The translations under genes and the position numbers were made by a program. From NCBI RefSeq assembly GCF_021531915.1, contig NZ_JAFBIV010000001.1:62001-126000 (forward strand): a DNA stretch of 64,000 nucleotides. The letters are read 5' to 3'. Below are positions 44,242 through 60,005 of this stretch, one piece after another. Under the pieces are notes generated by a model that had not been told where the DNA came from, did not search any database, and was given only the letters and a program-made list of their open reading frames with translations. The stretch is from Oscillibacter valericigenes. GTDB lineage: Bacteria > Bacillota > Clostridia > Oscillospirales > Oscillospiraceae. Position 1 is the first letter of the stretch; each line of letters opens with the position of its first letter.

Positions 44242-44673
44242 TTACTGCTTTTCACATAGCAGCCGCAGTGCCTCCACATACCCCGGCAGGCCATGGCCCT
44301 TGATGGTAGCGATGCAGGCGGCACGGATGTAGGAGGTGTGTCGGAATTCCTCCCGCCCATCCGGGTCAGACACATGGACCTCCACTGTGGGAATGCCGAC
44401 TGCCTTCACCGCGTCCAGCAGCGCCACGCTGGTATGGGTGTAAGCCGCGGGGTTGATGATGATGCCGTCTACCTTGTCAAAGTAGGCTTGCTGGATAGCG
44501 TCCACCAGGGCACCCTCGTGGTTGGACTGGAAGAAGCTGATCTCCACCCCCAGCTTGTCGGCCTCTGCCTGAAGCATAGCCACCAGATCGGCGTAGGTGG
44601 TTTTCCCGTAGATCTCCGGCTGGCGGATGCCCAGCATGTTCATGTTGGGGCCGTTAAGCACCAGAATTTTCAC
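44242..44673 (-). CDS. aroQ: 3-dehydroquinate dehydratase, type II
   Basis: 143-residue type II dehydroquinase; converts 3-dehydroquinate to 3-dehydroshikimate. Seen: ILVLNGPNMNMLGIRQPEIYG, with the catalytic Tyr in the lid, SNHEGALVDAIQQA, NPAAYTHTSVALLDA and VEVHVSDPDGREEFRH (here SDPDGREEFRH corresponds to SNIHAREEFRH). Starts with GTG at 44673 behind GGAGGG, overlapping the aroE-aroK fusion by 20 bases. Last gene of the aromatic operon. Confidence 0.95.
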   Translation of the reverse strand: MKILVLNGPNMNMLGIRQPEIYGKTTYADLVAMLQAEADKLGVEISFFQSNHEGALVDAIQQAYFDKVDGIIINPAAYTHTSVALLDAVKAVGIPTVEVHVSDPDGREEFRHTSYIRAACIATIKGHGLPGYVEALRLLCEKQ

Positions 44674-45898
44674 AAAAATCCCTCCAGATTGCGGCGGCGG
44701 TGTCCTCCACCGTGCCGTTGTTGTCCATAGCAGCGTCCCGGAAGGCCGTGTACAGCGGTGCCCGCTCCGCCCACATGGCGGACAGGTCCGCGCCCTGGGA
44801 CAGGGGGCGGCCGTCGGTAGACAAGGCGTCCAAATTCCGTACCAGCTGATAGATGCGGCCGTTCTGGTGGAGCGGGGCATAGTTGCGCCGGTCCTTCACC
44901 ACGCCGCCGCCGGTGAGAAGGATCTTGCCGGACAGCTTGCCCACTTCCGCCGTCACTTCCCGTTCCAGCGCCCGGAAGGCGGCTTCGCCCTCTGCGGCAA
45001 AAATCTCCGGAATGGAGCGGCCGGCCTTTTCCACGATCCGCTGGTCGATGTCGATGGCCTCCCGGCCTGTCAGCGCCGCCAGGGCCTGCCCCACCGTGGT
45101 CTTGCCGCAGCCGGGCATACCGATGAGGACGATGTTGGTGCACTCCCGCCGCAACAGGGCCAGGATGCGCTCATTCTCGCTGTCGGGAATGGCCTTTTCA
45201 AAGAAGTGCTCCTCTGCCGCCTTGGCCTGGGCCACCAGCATGGGTAGGCCGTCAGAGCAGGGGATGCCCAGCTCCTCCGCCTGCAGCAGCAGGGCAGTAC
45301 GGCGGGGATTGTACACCACGTCCAGCACGCCGGAGCACCGGGGGAAGGCCGCCAGGTCCACGGGGGACACACCGGTGTTGGGGAACATGCCCACCGGGGT
45401 GGTGTTCACCACAATGTCTGCGTCGGCGTGACGGTCCAGGTTGCCGTAGTTGTCGGGCCCGGAGCGGGAGATGACCACCACCTCCCGGGCGCCCATGGCC
45501 TTCGCGCAGGCCTGGGCAGTCAGGGACGCGCCGCCGCTGCCCAGAATGACGGCCTTCTTGCTTTGGAAAGAGATGCCCGCCCGCTCAGCCATCCACCGGA
45601 AGCCGGCGGCGTCGGTATTGAAGGCATACAGCTTTCCGTCGGCCCGGCGGGTCAGGGTGTTGACGCTGCCGATGGCCTGAGCCATGGGGTCAATGATGTC
45701 GCAGAAGGGCATCACATCCCGCTTGTAGGGGATGGTGACGTTGAGCCCGCCGATGTCGGGCTGGCGGAGAAAGCCTTCCAGCTCCTCGGGGTCCAGCTCG
45801 ATGAGCCGGTAGCCCTCACAGCCCAGGGCGGTGTGGATGGGCACGGACCAGCTGTGGCCCAGCCTGCGGCCCAACAGGCCGAAGATTTTCTCAGCCAT
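44654..45898 (-). CDS. Fused shikimate dehydrogenase-shikimate kinase
   Basis: 414 residues. Residues 1 to about 250 are shikimate dehydrogenase (AroE): GHSWSVPIHTAL, NVTIPYKRDVMPF with the catalytic Lys, GSVNTL and NADP-binding LGSGGASLTAQAC. Residues about 258-414 are shikimate kinase (AroK): Walker A IGMPGCGKTTVG, IDQRIVEKAGRSIPEIF, GGGVVKDRRNY and a lid Arg. One chain thus carries two consecutive pathway steps, dehydroshikimate to shikimate to shikimate 3-phosphate. The fusion junction (SENERILALLRREC) shows no frameshift. Gap of three bases after pheA; overlaps aroQ. Confidence 0.95.
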   Translation of the reverse strand: MAEKIFGLLGRRLGHSWSVPIHTALGCEGYRLIELDPEELEGFLRQPDIGGLNVTIPYKRDVMPFCDIIDPMAQAIGSVNTLTRRADGKLYAFNTDAAGFRWMAERAGISFQSKKAVILGSGGASLTAQACAKAMGAREVVVISRSGPDNYGNLDRHADADIVVNTTPVGMFPNTGVSPVDLAAFPRCSGVLDVVYNPRRTALLLQAEELGIPCSDGLPMLVAQAKAAEEHFFEKAIPDSENERILALLRRECTNIVLIGMPGCGKTTVGQALAALTGREAIDIDQRIVEKAGRSIPEIFAAEGEAAFRALEREVTAEVGKLSGKILLTGGGVVKDRRNYAPLHQNGRIYQLVRNLDALSTDGRPLSQGADLSAMWAERAPLYTAFRDAAMDNNGTVEDTAAAIWRDFCENSGA

Positions 45899-45901
45899 AG
45901 G

Positions 45902-47038
45902 TCAGACTTCGGCGTAGCTGCCCAGGAAGTTGAAGCTGGCGCAGCTGCGCTCCATCTCCTGCAGCATGGACAGGACGCCGGGCTCCTGAACGGAGGCCTC
46001 CAGCTCCAGGAAGAAGATGAACTCGAAGTTCCGGCCGCTGACGGGGCAGGACTCCAGCTTGGTCATGTTGATGTTCAGCGCCGCCAGCTTGGACAGGATC
46101 TCATACAGGGCACCGGGCTTATTGTCACAGGCAATGATCAGGCTGATGCGGTTGGCTCCGGCGTAGATGACAGGGTCCTTGGCGATGCAGAAGAAGCGGG
46201 TGTAGTTGTTGTCGCTGTCCTGGATGGCGTCGCTGACGCACTCCAGGCCATACAGCTCCGCGCAGGGGTGGGAGGAGATGGCGGCGGCGTGGCGGTTTCC
46301 GCTCTCCGCCACCATTTTGGCGGCCATGGCGGTGTTGTCGCAGGGGATCACCCGGACGCCGCCCTGGCTGTTCAGGAACTTGCCGCACTGGCCCAGGGCC
46401 TGCTCATGGGAGTAGATCTCTGTAATGTCGCTCATCTTGACACCGGGCAGAGCCAGCAGCTCGTGGCGGATGCACAGCCGGGTGGAGCGGACCACGGAGA
46501 GGTTGTGCTCCTGCAGCAGGGTGTAGACGGCACGGACGGAGCCATTGGAGCTGTTTTCAATGGGCAGCACACCGAACTTGCACAGGCCGGACTCCACGGC
46601 GGAGACCACGGCGTCGAAGGTCTTGACGTAGACGATGTTGCCCCGGGGCAGGATGCGGTCACAGGCCACCTGGCTGTTGGCACCCTCCACGCCCTGGCAG
46701 GCGATCAGGCCTGTCTGGGGAAACACGGGGCCGCCGGCGGCCAGGGAGGTCTCCACCTGGGCGGCCACCTTGGTGGGGGCATTGATCAGCTCTGCCTGCC
46801 GGGACCGGGCCAGCTCGAACAGAGTGGAATACAGGTGATAGGCATAGCGCTCCTTGTCCCCGGCCTTCTCCGTGATCTTGGCCAGCACCTCCCGCTCCCG
46901 CTGCTTGTTCAGGATGGGGAGATGATGCTCATTTTTATACGCGGCCACTTCCTCGGCCAGATTCATACGCTCCAGGAACAGCTGCAGCAGCTGGTCGTCC
47001 ACGGCGTCAATTTTCGTGCGGATCTCAGAAAGTTCCAT
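45902..47038 (-). CDS. pheA: Bifunctional chorismate mutase/prephenate dehydratase
   Basis: 378 residues. AroQ-type chorismate mutase at 1-85 (IRTKIDAVDDQLLQLFLERM), prephenate dehydratase at about 108-285 (GVEGANSQVACDRI, then VLPIENSSNGSVRAVYTLL and the catalytic-site DNNYTRFFCIA) and a C-terminal ACT domain (about 298-375; KPGALYEILSKLAALNINMT followed by LESCPV) for feedback by phenylalanine. Produces phenylpyruvate from chorismate. Overlaps aroC by 14 bases. Its mutase domain also supplies prephenate for tyrA in the same operon. Confidence 0.95.
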   Translation of the reverse strand: MELSEIRTKIDAVDDQLLQLFLERMNLAEEVAAYKNEHHLPILNKQREREVLAKITEKAGDKERYAYHLYSTLFELARSRQAELINAPTKVAAQVETSLAAGGPVFPQTGLIACQGVEGANSQVACDRILPRGNIVYVKTFDAVVSAVESGLCKFGVLPIENSSNGSVRAVYTLLQEHNLSVVRSTRLCIRHELLALPGVKMSDITEIYSHEQALGQCGKFLNSQGGVRVIPCDNTAMAAKMVAESGNRHAAAISSHPCAELYGLECVSDAIQDSDNNYTRFFCIAKDPVIYAGANRISLIIACDNKPGALYEILSKLAALNINMTKLESCPVSGRNFEFIFFLELEASVQEPGVLSMLQEMERSCASFNFLGSYAEV

Positions 47039-48116
47039 GATGTCCCTCCAAAAGTAAATCTAACAGTACCGTCGCGGTGACGGCTTCCACCACCGGGACG
47101 GCCCGGTGGGCAATGCAGGGGTCGTGGCGGCCCCGGATGACCAGCTCTGTGTCCTCCATGGCGGAGAGACTGACGGTCCGCTGGGCCTGGGAAATGGACG
47201 GGGTGGGTTTCATGGCCACCCGCAGGGTAATGGGCATCCCGGTGGTAATACCGCCCAGGATGCCGCCGGCGCGGTTGCTCTCCGTGACGATCTTCCCGTC
47301 TTCCACGGTAAAGGGGTCGTTGTTTTCCGACCCATGGAGCCGGGCGGAGCCAAAGCCCAGGCCGAACTCCACACCCTTCACGGCAGGGATGCCGAACAGG
47401 GCGGCGGCCAGGCGGTTTTCGATGCCATCGAACATGGGGTCACCCAATCCAGCAGGCAGCCCGATGGCAGCGCACTCGATGGTGCCGCCCACAGAGTCCA
47501 GATTCTGCCGGGCCTCCAGGATCAGAGCCTGCATCCGCTCTCCGGCATGGTCGTCCAGCACCGGGAAGGGCTTGGCGGCCACCTGATCAAAGAGGGCGGC
47601 GGTGGGGTGCAGGGGGAAAGGAGAATCGCTTTCCGCCCCCACGGAGGCAAGGTGGGCGCCTATATAGATGCCCCGGCGGGCCAGGATCTGCTTGGCAATG
47701 CCGCCGGCGATGCACAGGGGCGCCGTCAGGCGGCCGGAGAAATGGCCGCCGCCCCGCATGTCCGCCTGTCCGCCCCACTTTACCCAGGCGGTGTAATCCG
47801 CGTGGGAGGGGCGGGGTTTGTCGGCCAGCTCACTGTAATCCGAGGAGTGCTGGTCGCTGTTTTCAATGATGGCGCACAGGGGCGCGCCGCAGGTGACGCC
47901 ATTTTCCAGGCCGGAGAGGAAGATGGGGGTATCCGATTCCCTCCGGGCGGTGGACAGGGGGCTCTTTCCCGGCTTCCGCCGGTCCAGGAAGGCATACAGG
48001 GCCTCCAGGTCAATGGGCTCCCCGGCGGGCAGGCCATCCATATTGAAGCCGATAGCCCTGCCGTGGGACTGGCCGAAGACTGAAACCCGCAGGATGCGGC
48101 CGAATTCAGAGGACAT
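47025..48116 (-). CDS. aroC: Chorismate synthase
   Basis: 363 residues; removes phosphate from EPSP to give chorismate, needing reduced FMN. Start at ATG 48116 (RILRVSVFGQSHGRAIG is the conserved opening), 8 bases after GGGAGG; an in-frame ATG 30 bases upstream lacks a site. Other marks: FSGRLTAPLCIAGGIA, SVGGTIECAA and FKRGRHDPC-type ending read here as IRGRHDPCIAHRAVPV. Overlaps aroA by 11 bases and pheA by 14. Fits midway in the aromatic operon. Confidence 0.96.
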   Translation of the reverse strand: MSSEFGRILRVSVFGQSHGRAIGFNMDGLPAGEPIDLEALYAFLDRRKPGKSPLSTARRESDTPIFLSGLENGVTCGAPLCAIIENSDQHSSDYSELADKPRPSHADYTAWVKWGGQADMRGGGHFSGRLTAPLCIAGGIAKQILARRGIYIGAHLASVGAESDSPFPLHPTAALFDQVAAKPFPVLDDHAGERMQALILEARQNLDSVGGTIECAAIGLPAGLGDPMFDGIENRLAAALFGIPAVKGVEFGLGFGSARLHGSENNDPFTVEDGKIVTESNRAGGILGGITTGMPITLRVAMKPTPSISQAQRTVSLSAMEDTELVIRGRHDPCIAHRAVPVVEAVTATVLLDLLLEGHHGTF

Positions 48117-49278
48117 CAAACACACCTCCCAGTCGTTTGTAGTCATCCCAGAAGCTGGGGTAGGATTTGTTCACCGCTTCCGCTCCCAAGATGGTCACCG
48201 GACCGTCGGCGCGGGTGGCGGCGATGGCCGCCGCCATGACGATGCGGTGGTCGTTGGCTCCGTCCACCGTGCCGCCGGTAAAGGCGGTGACACCCCGGAC
48301 TGTCAGGCTGTCGGGGCCTTCCTCTGCCTGCCCGCCCAGGGCGGTGAGCATCTGGTGGACCGTGGTCAAGCGGTCGCTCTCCTTGATGCGGAGCCGGGCG
48401 GCGTTAATGAAAGAGGTAGTCCCGTTCCGCACCGCCGCCATCACCGCCAGGGGCGGCAGCAGGTCGGGGCAGCCGGACACGTCAATGTCCACGTCGCCTG
48501 GGCGGGCCAGCTTCCAATACAGTTCGCTGACCACCTTGTCTCCCTGGGCGGAGGCGGGGTTCAGCCCCGTGGGCTGGACACCGTTGTCCAGGAAAGCGGC
48601 GGCATACCAGAAGCCCGCCTGGGACCAGTCGGCCTCCACGGCGATGTCCCGGGCCTGATAGGTCTGGTTTCCGGGGACCCGGAAGCACTTGTAGTTCTGA
48701 TTCTCCACAGTAATGCCGAACTGCGCCAGCATGTCTAGGGTCATGTCCACGTAGCCACCGGATTCCAGGGGCGTGGTGATCTCAATGACGGAATCGCCCG
48801 GCAGCAGGGGCAGGGCGTACAGCAGTCCGGTGACGAACTGACTGGACACATTCCCCGGCAGGCGGTACACGCCGGGGATCAGAGTGCCCCGGACGGTGAG
48901 GACGCCGTCCTTCTGCTCATGGAAGATGCCTTTTTCGTCAAAGATGTCAAAGTAGGGGCCCTGGGGCCGCTCCATGAGCCGTCCCCGGCCGGTGAAGACG
49001 CCACCGCCCGCCACCGCCAGAGCGATGGGAATAAGGAAGCGGAGGGTGGAGCCGGATTCGCCGCAGTCCAGGAAGGGCAGCTCCCCGTCAGGCCGGGGGG
49101 CCTTCAAAGCCGCTACGCACCGTTTTGTGGCCTGGATGTCCTGGGAGTCGCTGAGGTTGGAGAGGCTTCCTTCGCCGTCTGCCAGCGCCAGAGCCAGCAC
49201 GGCCCGGTGGGCCATGGACTTGCTGGCGGGGGGCATCACGGTGCCGTTCAGCGTATGGGGGGTGATGCGGATATCCAT
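48106..49278 (-). CDS. aroA: 5-enolpyruvylshikimate-3-phosphate synthase
   Basis: 390 residues, slightly short for EPSPS (about 420-430) but with all landmarks: PPASKSMAHRAVLALALADG (PEP/phosphate-binding Lys near residue 20), DCGESGSTLRFLIP, GRGRLMERP, DVSGCPDLLPPLAVMAA, IKESDRL and DGANDHRIVMA. The loop GESGSTLRF has Ser-Gly-Ser where glyphosate-sensitive class I enzymes read GNAGTAMR, so it looks class II-like. Starts one base after the aroB stop. Confidence 0.95.
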   Translation of the reverse strand: MDIRITPHTLNGTVMPPASKSMAHRAVLALALADGEGSLSNLSDSQDIQATKRCVAALKAPRPDGELPFLDCGESGSTLRFLIPIALAVAGGGVFTGRGRLMERPQGPYFDIFDEKGIFHEQKDGVLTVRGTLIPGVYRLPGNVSSQFVTGLLYALPLLPGDSVIEITTPLESGGYVDMTLDMLAQFGITVENQNYKCFRVPGNQTYQARDIAVEADWSQAGFWYAAAFLDNGVQPTGLNPASAQGDKVVSELYWKLARPGDVDIDVSGCPDLLPPLAVMAAVRNGTTSFINAARLRIKESDRLTTVHQMLTALGGQAEEGPDSLTVRGVTAFTGGTVDGANDHRIVMAAAIAATRADGPVTILGAEAVNKSYPSFWDDYKRLGGVFDVL

Positions 49279-49279
49279 G

Positions 49280-50347
49280 TCAGCCCTCCAGTCCTGCCCG
49301 GATGATGGGCAGCAGCTCTGCCACCGGGACTTTTTTCAGCTGGCAGGCACCGATTTTCTGCGGAATGACCAGGGTGATGGTATCCCCGGCCCGCTTTTTG
49401 TCGGCAAGTGCCGCTTCTGCCAGCGCTTCAGCAGAAAACTCCGTGCCGGTGGGCAGGCCGTTTTTGGCAAGGCAGGCGGCAATGCGGGCGGCGATGGGTC
49501 CTTCTGTCCAGCCAAGGGCTTCGGCGGACCGGGCGATGATGGCAAGGCCCGCCGCCACGGCGTGGCCGTGAGGGATGGCGTACCCGCTGCACTTCTCAAT
49601 GGCGTGGCCTACGGTGTGGCCCAGGTTCAGCAGCTTCCGCTCACCCTGTTCCTTCTCGTCCCGCTCCACCACGCCGGCCTTGTACCGGACGCACCGGGCA
49701 ATGACTTCGTCGGGAGCAGTGGTCAGTGTGCCGTCCTCAAAGAGGGCAAACAGGCTCTCGTCGTCCAGCACGCCGGTCTTGATGGCCTCGGCGGCGCCGT
49801 CGGCGAACACGTCGGCGGGCAGGGAGCGGAGACAGTCCGTGTCGCACAGCACAGCGGTAGGCTGCAAAAAAGCCCCGGCCAGATTTTTGCCCGCCGCCAG
49901 GTCGATGGCGGTCTTGCCGCCTACGGAGGAATCCACGGCGGAGAGCAGGGTGGTGGGCAATTGGACGCAGCGGATGCCCCGCAGGTAGCAGGCGGCGGCG
50001 AACCCCGCCATGTCCCCGGTGACGCCGCCGCCCAGAGCGATGACGCAGTCAGTGCGGGTCAGGTGCTGCTCCGCCAGAAATTCCAGAATGGCGGCCAGGG
50101 TGGTGAAATTTTTGCTGCCCTCCCCGGCGGGGAAGATATGAAAACAGACGGCGAACCCGGCAGCGGTCAGACTGTCGGTCACCGTCTTCAGATACAGGGG
50201 CGCCACGGTGCTGTCGGTGATGACGGCAGCGCGGCAGGGGGCCAGCACCTTGCGCAGGTGCTGGCCGCAGTCGGACAGTAGCCCGCCGCCGATGGAGACC
50301 TCATAGGCGGGGGTGGTATGGACTTCAATGGTCTGGATGGAGGACAT
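49280..50347 (-). CDS. aroB: 3-dehydroquinate synthase
   Basis: 355-residue NAD- and zinc-dependent enzyme converting DAHP to 3-dehydroquinate. Seen: VIALGGGVTGDMAGFAAACY (NAD site), TTLLSAVDSSVGGKTAIDL, EAIKTGVLDDESLF and zinc ligands in LLNLGHTVGHAIEK and YAIPHGHAVAAG. Length is typical. AGGAGGG lies 5 bases before ATG 50347. It follows tyrA after 88 bases that contain a small hairpin (GGGCGGA/TCCGCCC, 50381-50399), the largest gap in the operon. Confidence 0.96.
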   Translation of the reverse strand: MSSIQTIEVHTTPAYEVSIGGGLLSDCGQHLRKVLAPCRAAVITDSTVAPLYLKTVTDSLTAAGFAVCFHIFPAGEGSKNFTTLAAILEFLAEQHLTRTDCVIALGGGVTGDMAGFAAACYLRGIRCVQLPTTLLSAVDSSVGGKTAIDLAAGKNLAGAFLQPTAVLCDTDCLRSLPADVFADGAAEAIKTGVLDDESLFALFEDGTLTTAPDEVIARCVRYKAGVVERDEKEQGERKLLNLGHTVGHAIEKCSGYAIPHGHAVAAGLAIIARSAEALGWTEGPIAARIAACLAKNGLPTGTEFSAEALAEAALADKKRAGDTITLVIPQKIGACQLKKVPVAELLPIIRAGLEG

Positions 50348-50435: not shown

Positions 50436-51272
50436 TTAGTTTCCGCCCGCGGTGGCTTTTTTCTCCCTGCCGTCCTTCAGCAGGGCGCGGAGCTGGTCAG
50501 CGTCCTTGGCTTTCAGCGCATCGGCGTATTCGGAGAGGTTTTCAATGAGGATGTCCAACTCCTTCGTCAGGTAGTCGGCGTCGTCCAGGAACAGCTCTGT
50601 CCACATGTCCTCGTCCAGCCGGGCCACCCGGGTCATATCCCGGAAGCTGCCGGCGGAGAAGCCCCGGCGACGCTGGGCCTCGGGGGACTTGATGTAGGCG
50701 CTGGAGACGATGTGGGCCAACTGGGAGGTGTAGGCGATGATGCGGTCATGCTCGTCCGGCGTGGAGAAGGTCAGGTTGGCAAAGCCAATATCCAGGAAGA
50801 AGGCTTTCAGCATCTCCAGAAGCTGCATGTCCGTCCGCTTGTCCGGCGTCAGGATCATGGAAGCGCCTACGTACAGATCCTCTGTGGCGGAGGTAAAGCC
50901 GCCCCGCTCCTTGCCGGCCATGGGATGGCCGCCGATGTAGGCAAAGCCGTACTGCTCGGCGATGGGGGCGATGCTCTCCACCACCACCCGCTTCACGCCG
51001 CACAGGTCCACCACGACGGCGGACTTGCTGATGTCGGCGGCGTTTCGGCGGACCCACTCGATGGCGGCGGCAGGACGGATGGCAATGAGAATCAGGTCAC
51101 ACTGGGAAAGGTTTTCTTGAGTCAGCGGGGCGTCGACGGCGCCGCACATCCGGGCCATCATCAAGGTCTCCTCGCTGCGGGCAATGCCGAACACCGTGTG
51201 GCCGGTGCGGGCTTTGATACTTTTCGCCATGGAGCCTCCGATGAGGCCTAGGCCCACAATACCCACCTTCAT
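50436..51272 (-). CDS. tyrA: Prephenate dehydrogenase
   Basis: 278 residues; oxidises prephenate to 4-hydroxyphenylpyruvate, the tyrosine precursor. NAD-binding VGIVGLGLIGGSMAKSI at the N-terminus, catalytic-region GGHPMAGKERGGFTSA and TSQLAHIVSSAY in the helical dimer domain. No ACT domain, so regulation by tyrosine must be through this short form or through transcription. Directly after aroF (three-base gap). Presence of both pheA and tyrA makes the operon complete for Phe and Tyr precursors. Confidence 0.95.
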   Translation of the reverse strand: MKVGIVGLGLIGGSMAKSIKARTGHTVFGIARSEETLMMARMCGAVDAPLTQENLSQCDLILIAIRPAAAIEWVRRNAADISKSAVVVDLCGVKRVVVESIAPIAEQYGFAYIGGHPMAGKERGGFTSATEDLYVGASMILTPDKRTDMQLLEMLKAFFLDIGFANLTFSTPDEHDRIIAYTSQLAHIVSSAYIKSPEAQRRRGFSAGSFRDMTRVARLDEDMWTELFLDDADYLTKELDILIENLSEYADALKAKDADQLRALLKDGREKKATAGGN

Positions 51273-51275
51273 GGC

Positions 51276-52289
51276 TCAGCCCTCCAGGGTCTTCATGGTC
51301 TCGTGGAGCTGCAGCAGCTTTTTGGCCAGGGGATCGAACTGCTCGGGCTTCAGGGACTGGGGACCATCACACAGGGCGTGGGCGGGGTCGTTGTGGACCT
51401 CGATCTGCAGACCGTCGCAGCCGGTAGCCACGGCGCCCAGGGCCAGGGGCTCCACCAGCCAGTTCTTGCCGGTGGCGTGGCTGGGGTCGATGATGATGGG
51501 CAGGTGGGTCAGCTTCTTCATCACGGGGATGGCGGCCAGGTCCAGGGTGTTGCGGGTGTAGCTCTCGAAGGTGCGGATGCCGCGCTCGCAGAGGATGACG
51601 TTCTCGTTGCCGCCAGCCATGACGTACTCGGCGCTCATGAGCCACTCCTCATAGGTGGCGGACATGCCCCGCTTGATCATGACGGGCTTGTCCTGATGGC
51701 CCACGGCCTTCAGCAGGTCGAAGTTTTGCATGTTGCGGGCGCCGATCTGGATCACGTCCACATCCTTGAACAGGGGCAGCTGGCTCAGGTCCATCAGCTC
51801 GGTGACGATGGGCAGACCGGTCTCCTGACGGGCGATCTTCAGGTACTCCAGGCCGGTGGCGCCCAGGCCCTGGAAGGAGTAGGGGGAGGTGCGGGGCTTG
51901 AAGGCGCCGCCGCGGAGCATGGTGGCGCCGCTGGCCTTCACAGCCTTGGCGATGGCTACCACCTGCTCCTCGCTCTCCACGGAGCAGGGGCCCGCCATGA
52001 TGGTCAGGGTGCCGCCGCCAATCTGGGTGTTGCCCACCTGGATCACGGTGTCCTCGGGGTGGAACTTGCGGTTGGCGTTCTTGTAGGGCTCCTGGACCCG
52101 CTTCACGTCCTCTACGATGTCCAGGGCGGAGATCAGGTCGATGTCCAGCTTGGAGGTGTCGCCCACCAGGCCCAGAATGGTGTGGGCTTCGCCGATGCTG
52201 GTGTGGATGGAAATACCCTTTTCCTGGAGCCAGTTGACCAGGCTCTCCAGCTGGTCACGGTTGGGATTGTGTTTCAGAATGACGATCAT
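51276..52289 (-). CDS. aroF: 3-deoxy-7-phosphoheptulonate (DAHP) synthase
   Basis: 337-residue type I-beta DAHP synthase like that of Thermotoga: an N-terminal ferredoxin-like regulatory domain (1 to about 70, MIVILKHNPNRDQLESLVNW) joined to the TIM barrel with MAGPCSVESEEQVVAIA, RGGAFKPRTSPYSFQGLG, IQIGARNMQNF and IDPSHATGK. The regulatory domain mediates inhibition by Tyr or Phe in characterised relatives. Start ATG 52289 is 8 bases after AAGGAGG; the frame upstream is leader sequence. First structural gene of the operon, placed after an aromatic leader peptide and terminator. Committed step of aromatic synthesis. Confidence 0.96.
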   Translation of the reverse strand: MIVILKHNPNRDQLESLVNWLQEKGISIHTSIGEAHTILGLVGDTSKLDIDLISALDIVEDVKRVQEPYKNANRKFHPEDTVIQVGNTQIGGGTLTIMAGPCSVESEEQVVAIAKAVKASGATMLRGGAFKPRTSPYSFQGLGATGLEYLKIARQETGLPIVTELMDLSQLPLFKDVDVIQIGARNMQNFDLLKAVGHQDKPVMIKRGMSATYEEWLMSAEYVMAGGNENVILCERGIRTFESYTRNTLDLAAIPVMKKLTHLPIIIDPSHATGKNWLVEPLALGAVATGCDGLQIEVHNDPAHALCDGPQSLKPEQFDPLAKKLLQLHETMKTLEG

Positions 52290-52319
52290 GATAAGTGCCT
52301 CCTTACAGATTTCAGCGGT

Positions 52320-52352
52320 AAAAAAGACCCGCAGCCGGTCTGGCTGCGGGTC
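52320..52352 (-). terminator. Attenuator terminator of the aro operon
   Basis: Perfect 11-bp stem GACCCGCAGCC / GGCTGCGGGTC (52326-52352), followed on the minus strand by six T, between leader peptide and aroF. A second hairpin GTCCTG/CAGGAC (52358-52380) lies between it and the leader stop, giving the stacked hairpins of a classical attenuator. Confidence 0.92.
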
Positions 52353-52386
52353 TGCGAGTCCTGGTACGTTCTGACAGGACCAGTTT

Positions 52387-52485
52387 TTACACCCGGGTGC
52401 TTTCAGCCAAACCGAAATAAGCCTTACCAAAATAATAGGTAAAGCTAAAGTAGCGGTATGCAAAAGTACGGGCGATACTGGTCAT
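52387..52485 (-). CDS. Phe/Tyr-rich leader peptide (32 aa) of the aro operon
   Basis: A 32-codon frame on the minus strand from ATG 52485 to TAA at 52387-52389, preceded by GAGGAAA. Ten of the 17 residues from 8 to 24 are aromatic: Phe at 8, 13, 15, 19, 24 and Tyr at 10, 12, 17, 18, 23. It ends 35 bases before the attenuator terminator, exactly the layout of amino-acid biosynthetic leader peptides. When charged tRNA(Phe) or tRNA(Tyr) is scarce the ribosome should stall here and let transcription continue into aroF. Mechanism is inferred; composition, ribosome site and hairpins are seen. No Trp codon is present, consistent with an operon lacking trp genes. Confidence 0.88.
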   Translation of the reverse strand: MTSIARTFAYRYFSFTYYFGKAYFGLAESTRV

Positions 52486-52518
52486 GGAAAATTTCCTCTT
52501 GCCTCTTTAGATGTTTAA

Positions 52519-52547
52519 AGCATAACACTTCGGAAAGAAAATGAAAA
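52519..52547 (-). promoter_or_regulatory. Putative promoter of the aro operon
   Basis: Minus strand TTTTCA (52547-52542), 17-base spacer, TATGCT (52524-52519). Weak -35; -10 acceptable; about 30 bases before the leader peptide. Confidence 0.45.
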
Positions 52548-52606
52548 CTGTGAGTTTTTACAAAATATGAAACCACAGCAGGGTGCATCTGTACAAATCA
52601 ACTGAA

Positions 52607-53152
52607 TCAGACGGTGGGAAGGCAGCCTGCCATCAGAAGGCCGGTGGCCTCCAGAATGTAACGGATGTCCTGCTCCAGGTCGGACCTGGAATCCAGGTAC
52701 TGCCGGTGGAGCTGCTCAATGGCGGAGATCAGGTCCTGACGGCGCTGACGGCGGCGCAGAGCCTGCCGGGAGAGGTGCTCCGCCAGGGACAGGCGCAGGT
52801 CCGTCTCATAGCGGTGGTGGTCCATCAGGGTGTTGGGCCAGTTCTCGTTGTGGGGATAGGTAAAGGCGTCCGCCAGATAGTGGGTCAGCTTGCCCAGCGT
52901 GTAATACTGCCACACGGTCCAGCGGTCACGCTGCTGGAGCCGGCGGATATGGTCGTAGATGTACAGCTGGGAGTTGGAGAAGTTGTGTCCCCCCAGCCGC
53001 TTGGCCCGGCGGGAGCCCTTCAGATAAGTCAGGGGATTGCAGTCCGGCTGAAAGGAGCCGAAAAGAAAGGCCAGCTCATACCGTCTGGCGCGGAAGCCCT
53101 CATGGCTGCGCAGCAGCGCGGAGGCCAGGAGCTTGTGACTGCGTTTCTGCAA
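52607..53152 (-). CDS. Zinc-dependent phospholipase C-like protein
   Basis: About 181 residues of the zinc-dependent phospholipase C family (PF00882). Conserved ligands appear in AFLFGSFQPDCNPLTYLKG, GGHNFSNSQLYIYDHI and LGKLTHYLADAFTYPHNENW. Family members hydrolyse phospholipids, but this version has no visible signal peptide, so it may be cytoplasmic with another substrate. A GTG at 53161 abuts the ribosome site GGGAGG; the TTG at 53152 has ideal 8-base spacing and is preferred. Own promoter at 53188-53216. No connection to the adjacent aro operon is apparent. Confidence 0.82.
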   Translation of the reverse strand: MQKRSHKLLASALLRSHEGFRARRYELAFLFGSFQPDCNPLTYLKGSRRAKRLGGHNFSNSQLYIYDHIRRLQQRDRWTVWQYYTLGKLTHYLADAFTYPHNENWPNTLMDHHRYETDLRLSLAEHLSRQALRRRQRRQDLISAIEQLHRQYLDSRSDLEQDIRYILEATGLLMAGCLPTV

Positions 53153-53187
53153 GGGGCCCACCTCCCGGGTACAAAGTTTGCCTGTTC

Positions 53188-59704: not shown

Positions 59705-60005
59705 AAAATGAAAAACGCAGCTACATCCTAAAATTTTAGGACGAATAGCTGCTATCCGCGGTGCCACCTAATTTACCTTCCCTTTTTGACGGGGAACGGT
59801 CACCTTCAAGGCTCCAACAAGCCCGTGTGATGTAACGATCACAACTCGTCGCACTTACTGGCGGAAACCCGCGTTCAGATTGCAGCTACGGAGTGTTCTT
59901 CGCGCAGATTCTTTGGTACGGGGTTTCCACTGTCCCCCGCTCACTGAACCGAACTTCTGCGGTACTTTTCTCCATCAGCGCCTTTGCCGATGTTTTTTAA
60001 TTGAT
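59705..60005 (-). promoter_or_regulatory. T-box riboswitch of asnB (tRNA-Asn responsive)
   Basis: The T-box sequence AGGTGGCACCGCGG is at 59769-59756 on the minus strand. It is followed by the terminator GCAGCTA...TAGCTGC (59717-59752, containing TCCTAAAATTTTAGGA) with T5. Upstream lies a long Stem I region. Its specifier-loop side reads GAAGAACACTCC, placing AAC (Asn) at 59897-59895, followed by the usual purine. The downstream gene makes asparagine, supporting the assignment. Confidence 0.92.

Follow-up and report, generated by a model that had tools for sequence, protein, structure and literature searches.

A Phe/Tyr-rich leader peptide and a probable ribosome-mediated attenuator upstream of the aroF operon of Oscillibacter valericigenes

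The window analyzed here is a 64,000-nucleotide stretch of the Oscillibacter valericigenes genome, and it carries on its minus strand a run of genes for aromatic amino acid synthesis. The run starts with aroF (bp 51276–52289; 3-deoxy-7-phosphoheptulonate synthase; NCBIfam PRK08673 and TIGR01361, above cut-off) and continues with tyrA (50436–51272; prephenate dehydrogenase; best E 1.5e-49, under the equivalog cut-offs), aroB (49280–50347; 3-dehydroquinate synthase; TIGR01357, above cut-off), aroA (48106–49278; EPSP synthase; TIGR01356 at 275.6 bits, slightly under the cut-off of 287.25) and aroC (47025–48146; chorismate synthase; TIGR00033, above cut-off). These are followed by pheA (45902–47038), a chorismate mutase-prephenate dehydratase fusion whose family matches fall under the equivalog cut-offs, by a fusion of aroE and aroK (44654–45898; shikimate dehydrogenase plus shikimate kinase, with the domain order given by the matched stretches and scores under the cut-offs) and by aroQ, a type II dehydroquinase (Pfam DHquinase_II over residues 71–208) whose true start probably lies inside the open reading frame at 44242–44880. 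As predicted from these matches, aroF-tyrA-aroB-aroA-aroC-pheA-aroEK-aroQ is a complete shikimate-Phe-Tyr operon; the preliminary description of this DNA, made from its letters alone, had placed aroF and a complete aromatic operon at this point, and the aroF start at 52289 and the profile matches from aroF to aroQ agree with it. Several Oscillibacter genomes, O. valericigenes Sjm18-20 being one, are named relatives of the window's aroF, and one O. valericigenes locus (L138) has a leader very similar to that of the window. Neither trpE (TIGR00564) nor trpD (TIGR01245) has a match in the window's genome (97.7% complete), so the operon visibly makes two amino acids, Phe and Tyr, and these are the very residues in which the leader described below is rich; this strain is perhaps a tryptophan auxotroph with full Phe and Tyr synthesis.

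Between bp 52550 and 52289, where aroF starts, the minus strand displays, in this order, a promoter-like pair of hexamers, AAGAGG, a 32-codon frame, a small hairpin and an intrinsic terminator; a same-strand open reading frame (52607–53161) terminates 5′ of the leader. The −35-like TTTTCA (52542–52547) and −10-like TATGCT (52519–52524) are separated by a 17-nt spacer and were recognized by a −35/−10 pattern that finds matches in 36 of 40 genus leaders (in genome G017 at a different place); the pair is absent from the output of a general scan. AAGAGG (52495–52500), the putative ribosome-binding site of the leader, lies 9 nt 5′ of the ATG, and a purine site of three to five bases occupies the same place in all 40 genus leaders examined, in one of them merely as GAG. 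The frame itself (52387–52485) begins with ATG, ends with TAA and reads MTSIARTFAYRYFSFTYYFGKAYFGLAESTRV; ten aromatic residues fall within 17 (F8, Y10, Y12, F13, F15, Y17, Y18, F19, Y23 and F24; five Phe and five Tyr). The frame, its ribosome site and all ten positions had been given in exactly this way in the preliminary description. At the sequence level, then, a short open reading frame with start, ribosome site and stop precedes the first structural gene of the operon and is rich in codons for its end products. No NCBIfam or Pfam model matched the peptide, and the frame is probably an overlooked gene. In the genus leaders the promoter-like pair and the stretch 5′ of it (TTTGTAAAAACTCACAGTTTTCATTT; 52519–52562, minus strand) look conserved, and this stretch may be the site of an additional regulator.

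Aromatic leaders were sought 5′ of aroF in four sets of loci by a rule that accepts any open reading frame with at least six Phe or Tyr in 12 residues. It is satisfied in 41/41 genus, 52/60 family, 60/80 named and 37/60 order/class loci (the last from 57 other families), and fails in the remaining 8, 20 and 23 loci of the latter three sets, so that the leaders are not universal. A scored terminator accompanies the aromatic leader in 41, 52, 51 and 35 loci, respectively. Dinucleotide shuffles satisfy the rule in 2.2, 2.1, 3.2 and 5.5% of cases, and the antisense strand does so in 0, 0, 1 and 4 loci. The rule overlooks some leaders that are visible by eye (for example, in G065, G077, G172 and G236) and accepts some doubtful ones (for example, L139). 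In 100 of the 101 genus and family loci the 200 nt 5′ of aroF contain a terminator-like hairpin, a count made without a shuffle control. Relatives retain both the aromatic short frame and the terminator, and the search of homologous aroF leaders that the preliminary description had named comes out in its favor. The genus set comprises the window and the best-scoring 40 of the other aroF-bearing genus genomes (54 in all; 13 left out), and overlaps with the 80 named loci. The family set holds 60 loci from 59 genomes, the best of 243 aroF-bearing family genomes (G147, G383 and G306 skipped; the G339 locus incomplete), and nearer relatives are over-represented in it because its loci came from the top of the list. 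The order/class set takes one match per family, usually the best, with three families (f11, f21 and f22) entered twice, families such as f24, f44 and f64 left out, and one incomplete locus (L247).

Codon conservation was counted in the 41 genus leaders with the sequence GKA, which lies behind the aromatic run in every one of them, as the sole anchor. Among the 33 main-type leaders, an aromatic codon stands at positions 10, 12, 13, 15, 17, 18 and 23 in 33/33, at position 19 in 22 and at position 24 in 23; over all 41, codon 23 is aromatic in 41, codon 19 in 30 and codon 24 in 23. Third bases differ at codons 12, 13 and 17 in 4, 2 and 13 of the 33 main-type leaders, and codons 10 and 15 are fully invariant, so that constraint on the residue and constraint on the RNA are indistinguishable at these two. 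Beyond near relatives the sole survivor is the aromatic run (for example, MNRTYFFAYAYYFTMTI and MKSTLFAAAYFFYFFFYFICGKVKVISAAKNAIVA). The leader of Clostridium chromiireducens DSM 23318 reads KFYSFFYFTFWGFYF; a plasmid search with it found nothing.

The leader RNA can form several structures, all on the minus strand. A hairpin within the leader codons, P1 (52420–52446), is predicted by folding and pairs AGCUUUACC (52446–52438) with GGUAAGGCU (52428–52420) around a loop that carries Tyr-Tyr-Phe codons. Its arm codons are nearly invariant in the 41 genus leaders, synonymous bases included, and show no covariation; since P1 hardly varies, covariation does not separate it from conservation of the peptide, and its role may be that of a pause signal or a protector. 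The intrinsic terminator (52320–52353) lies between the leader frame and aroF and consists of a 12-bp stem (52353–52325) with nine G-C pairs, followed by a U run. Upstream of it lies an intermediate hairpin, GGUCCUG/CAGGACU (52357–52381). These are the two stacked hairpins of the preliminary description, and both are present, the second with a stem of 12 bp rather than 11 bp plus T6, as the outermost A-U pair had been counted into the U run. The structure that competes with the terminator is a different one: CGGUUUGGCUG in codons 24–28 (52404–52414) is complementary to CAGCCAGACCG (52336–52346), which comprises the distal 5′ arm of the terminator, its loop and the first base of its 3′ arm. This putative antiterminator, recognized by pairing, swap, covariation and folding models, shares bases with the terminator helix, and the two are mutually exclusive. 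The intermediate hairpin sits in the antiterminator loop; it was considered as the antiterminator itself and ruled out, as it has no overlap with the terminator arm. In other families the same relation recurs in different letters (GGUAAUUUGUG with CACAGGUUAC, UGAGUUUGUCUG with CAGCAAACUC, GGGUUUCACCG with CGGUGAAUCCC). Two further candidate pairings were abandoned: a protector stem of ACCG (codons 10–11) with CGGU in the predicted fold, whose register varies among subgroups, and a weak G-U-rich hairpin at columns 71–92 of the near-relative alignment (RNAalifold).

The 196-nt leader region is more stable than 200 of 200 shuffles (fold energy z −4.4). A simple scan of 2 kb returned two terminator-like sites where 1.6 were expected, so the terminator by itself is not evidence. 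When terminator arms were swapped among 148 non-redundant loci, the mean duplex energy was −16.98 kcal/mol for cognate and −12.83 kcal/mol (sd 0.22) for swapped pairs, and none of 5000 permutations reached the cognate mean; with the genus removed the values are −16.31 and −12.08 kcal/mol (n = 124). The cognate partner ranks in the best 5% for only 32 of the 148 leaders and 42 of the 148 terminators, because near relatives share arms, and comparison of single duplexes with shuffles is weak, with 53 of 100 loci beating at least 190 of 200 shuffles. Covariation was scored on 53 aligned near relatives (40 from the genus, 13 from the family). Ten of the 12 terminator pairs are changed on both sides there, and 0/500 shuffles score as high. 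The antiterminator is paired in 96.2% of cells, against at most 57.1% when slid; its covariation among these near relatives is thin, with three cells changed on both sides (2/500 shuffles as high) and a score equalled by 28/500 shuffles. As read from these sequences, both pairings are kept with covariation, the terminator strongly within near relatives and the antiterminator strongly across families.

The distance between the aromatic run and the antiterminator is narrowly distributed. Measured from the final aromatic codon in the densest window, the antiterminator begins a median of 17 nt downstream (IQR 14–19), with 75% of loci within 10–22 nt, whereas non-cognate pairings give an IQR of 3–22 and 39% for the same spacing. 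The stop codon lies a median of 19 nt (IQR −1 to 25) after the antiterminator start. A ribosome covers a footprint of RNA around the codon that it decodes, so from this spacing a terminating ribosome would sit on the antiterminator.

Ribosome position was modeled on a transcript that ends at the terminator loop, with the leader masked to 12 nt beyond the start of the A-site codon. The predicted probability of the antiterminator is 0.99–1.0 for an A site at the tested codons 1 to 19 (0.99 at the start codon alone), 0.59 at codon 23 and 0 at codons 24, 28 and 33 (the stop). It is 0.37 without a ribosome, because the leader then folds on itself and hides much of the CGGUUUGGCUG segment, so that partial termination would be expected. 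As a ribosome at the start codon already gives 0.99, the antiterminator is freed in this model by a ribosome at any position before codon 23; the model captures the masking effect of a late ribosome better than the specificity of a stall. Across the 148 loci the mean modeled probability is 0.84 with everything upstream masked and 0.35 unmasked, and the difference exceeds 0.2 in 105 loci and lies below −0.2 in none; this comparison is biased toward the antiterminator by construction, since masking removes all upstream competitors. Once the complete 3′ arm of the terminator is present, equilibrium folding favors the terminator at each ribosome position tried; a fold of the full-length leader under a masking ribosome is therefore uninformative as a test of the switch, and the transcript that ends before the 3′ arm is the informative one. 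It follows that the switch must be kinetic, as antitermination is in other attenuators. Codon conservation and the model agree imperfectly: codon 23 is aromatic in all 41 genus leaders though a stall there helps less, codon 19 in 30 of them and codon 24, with a modeled probability of 0, in 23. An explanation by which codon 24 may vary freely since a stall there would be useless was dropped, as codon 19 varies too and codon 23 does not.

The sequence comparisons and models together point to a leader-peptide attenuator, mediated by the ribosome, that controls transcription of the aroF operon, and we give this reading a probability of about 0.88. Transcription would begin just 5′ of the leader, with a ribosome trailing RNA polymerase through the 32-codon frame. 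A shortage of charged tRNA-Phe or tRNA-Tyr would stall this ribosome in the aromatic run (codons 8–19) with its front edge short of codons 24–28, leaving CGGUUUGGCUG to pair with the emerging terminator sequence (its 5′ arm and its loop); the terminator could then not close, and aroF-tyrA-aroB-aroA-aroC-pheA-aroEK-aroQ would be read. With both tRNAs charged, the ribosome would reach the stop codon and cover CGGUUUGGCUG, so that the terminator forms and transcription stops before aroF. The stall would be what holds the ribosome before codon 23 during synthesis of the terminator, and alteration of GGUUUGGCUG would be expected to make the operon uninducible. From the observed parts, their conservation, covariation and geometry, we infer that the leader is translated, that the outcome depends on tRNA charging and responds to starvation for Phe or Tyr, and that transcription of the operon is affected. 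The preliminary description had proposed attenuation of this kind, and conservation and covariation support it, while geometry and folding models fit it; the structures that exclude each other are the terminator and the helix of codons 24–28 with the terminator arm and loop, not the two stacked hairpins for which it had named a covariance test.

The same downstream RNA structures could also serve an arrest-peptide switch. TnaC-type switches of this sort are known, and here the nascent peptide would sense free Phe, Tyr or some other ligand and stall the ribosome. R11, T16, G20, K21, A22 and G25 are indeed fixed in 33/33 main-type leaders, and GKA in 41/41, which would suit such a peptide, but the majority of their codons fall within the P1 arms or the antiterminator half, where synonymous bases are fixed also and RNA pairing is thus indicated, and beyond near relatives the aromatic run alone is kept; an arrest peptide seems improbable. 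Still less probable is an attenuator that works without the ribosome, through RNA or a bound protein (riboswitch-like or TRAP-like), with the open reading frame incidental. P1 and the intermediate hairpin would provide it with additional structures and the conserved region 5′ of the promoter-like pair would fit it as well, but the aromatic codons are kept across families despite changing RNA sequence, their spacing to the antiterminator is narrow, and at the site Rfam gives only sub-threshold matches (E ≤ 10). Finally, the terminator might be constitutive and end an upstream transcript, with the aromatic frame there by chance. The same-strand frame that ends at 52607 would supply such a transcript; the shuffle, swap and covariation tests are all contrary to this, that frame and the leader are separated by a conserved promoter-like pair, and the explanation is very improbable indeed. 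Ribosome-mediated attenuation accounts for these observations better than any of the three.

Accounts of how clostridia regulate their amino-acid genes usually center on T-boxes and repressors. PMC2494555 and PMC9413887 fit this view. The window's genome has nine T-boxes above the Rfam cut-off and eight weaker ones (17 in total), the first eight of which precede glyS, leuS, valS, leuA, ilvC, a metN-like gene, asnB and ileS, named by best family match. The asnB T-box, which the preliminary description had also noted, lies at 59734–59987 (minus strand) and is the sole one in the window; none (RF00230) was found in 52200–52700 at E ≤ 10. In a scan of the family and order/class loci, no T-box precedes aroF in the 60 family loci; among the 60 order/class loci a T-box does so in three, none of which has an aromatic leader by the rule. 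T-box leaders would share their signal (uncharged tRNA) and their outcome with the aroF leader; they sense by direct contact of RNA with tRNA, whereas the aroF leader would do so via the ribosome.

Leader-peptide attenuation is a classical mechanism, and the pheL/trpL-type attenuators of enterobacteria have in common with the aroF leader their control codons and mutually exclusive antiterminator and terminator structures, and would also share with it the part played by ribosome position. Unlike in those, the antiterminator half of the aroF leader starts inside the frame and would be covered by the terminating ribosome, a single leader stands before the whole shikimate-Phe-Tyr operon, and the host is clostridial. 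Histidine leader-peptide attenuators have been described for Firmicutes, including bacilli, Peptostreptococcaceae and Erysipelotrichales (PMC9413887, with 17 genomes, and PMC2965389); they are the same kind of switch in Bacillota, with a different amino acid and different genes. A closer parallel is the uORFC-13-1 motif, known from 24 representatives in Acholeplasma and unassigned sequences and, according to PMC8632094, found exclusively before aroF, for which its authors suggest control through the speed of Phe incorporation. By that description the window's leader has the same location before aroF, an upstream frame with Phe codons and an adjacent downstream terminator; the motif has a U run coding for at least one Phe, whereas the window's leader has five Phe and five Tyr codons, an explicit, covarying antiterminator and a clostridial host. 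In view of these published cases, the premise of the preliminary description that Firmicutes usually use T-boxes or TRAP for such genes was too strong. A search of the literature, covering the main text of non-subscription papers, returned no report of a clostridial aroF leader peptide, and the part of PMC8040213 seen does not mention aroF. The kind of mechanism is known; what appears to be new, judged from sequence comparison, is its reach across Clostridia, the mixed reading of Phe and Tyr and the mapped antiterminator, in a genome where leuA, ilvC and asnB have T-boxes.

Trp codons are rare in the aroF leaders. Among 134 leaders drawn from 161 genus, family and order/class loci, trpD is carried by the genomes of 7 of the 11 leaders with Trp in the run and of 31 of the 123 without it (Fisher p = 0.012), a comparison that ignores kinship and in which some of the 11 are weak (for example, G416 and G736). 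With the genus removed, and kinship again ignored, the figures are 7/11 and 24/82 (p = 0.038), and the association is a lead only. A tentative and rather doubtful extension is that attenuation by an aroF leader is old, possibly ancestral, in Clostridia, that its codon run follows the pathways of the host (Phe and Tyr where Trp is not synthesized, as in the window's genome with its lack of trpE and trpD matches, Trp added where it is) and that T-boxes replace it in some lineages. If this were so, the leader would read which aromatic products the cell makes. The natural series of Phe/Tyr leaders, Phe/Tyr/Trp leaders and T-boxes bears on why lineages pick one tRNA sensor over another.

A few loci show peculiarities of their own. 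One genome (G063) has two aroF loci with an aromatic leader before each, one of the KVKVIRAAK type and the other of the GKAYLSL type. Four MAG contigs labeled Thermoguttaceae, Lentisphaerae or Treponemataceae (loci L158, L178, L200 and L207) carry an aroF closely related to the clostridial one together with an aromatic leader, and either mis-binning or transfer would explain this. At one further locus (L224, 398–552; genome G405) a glmS ribozyme adjoins aroF on the opposite strand.
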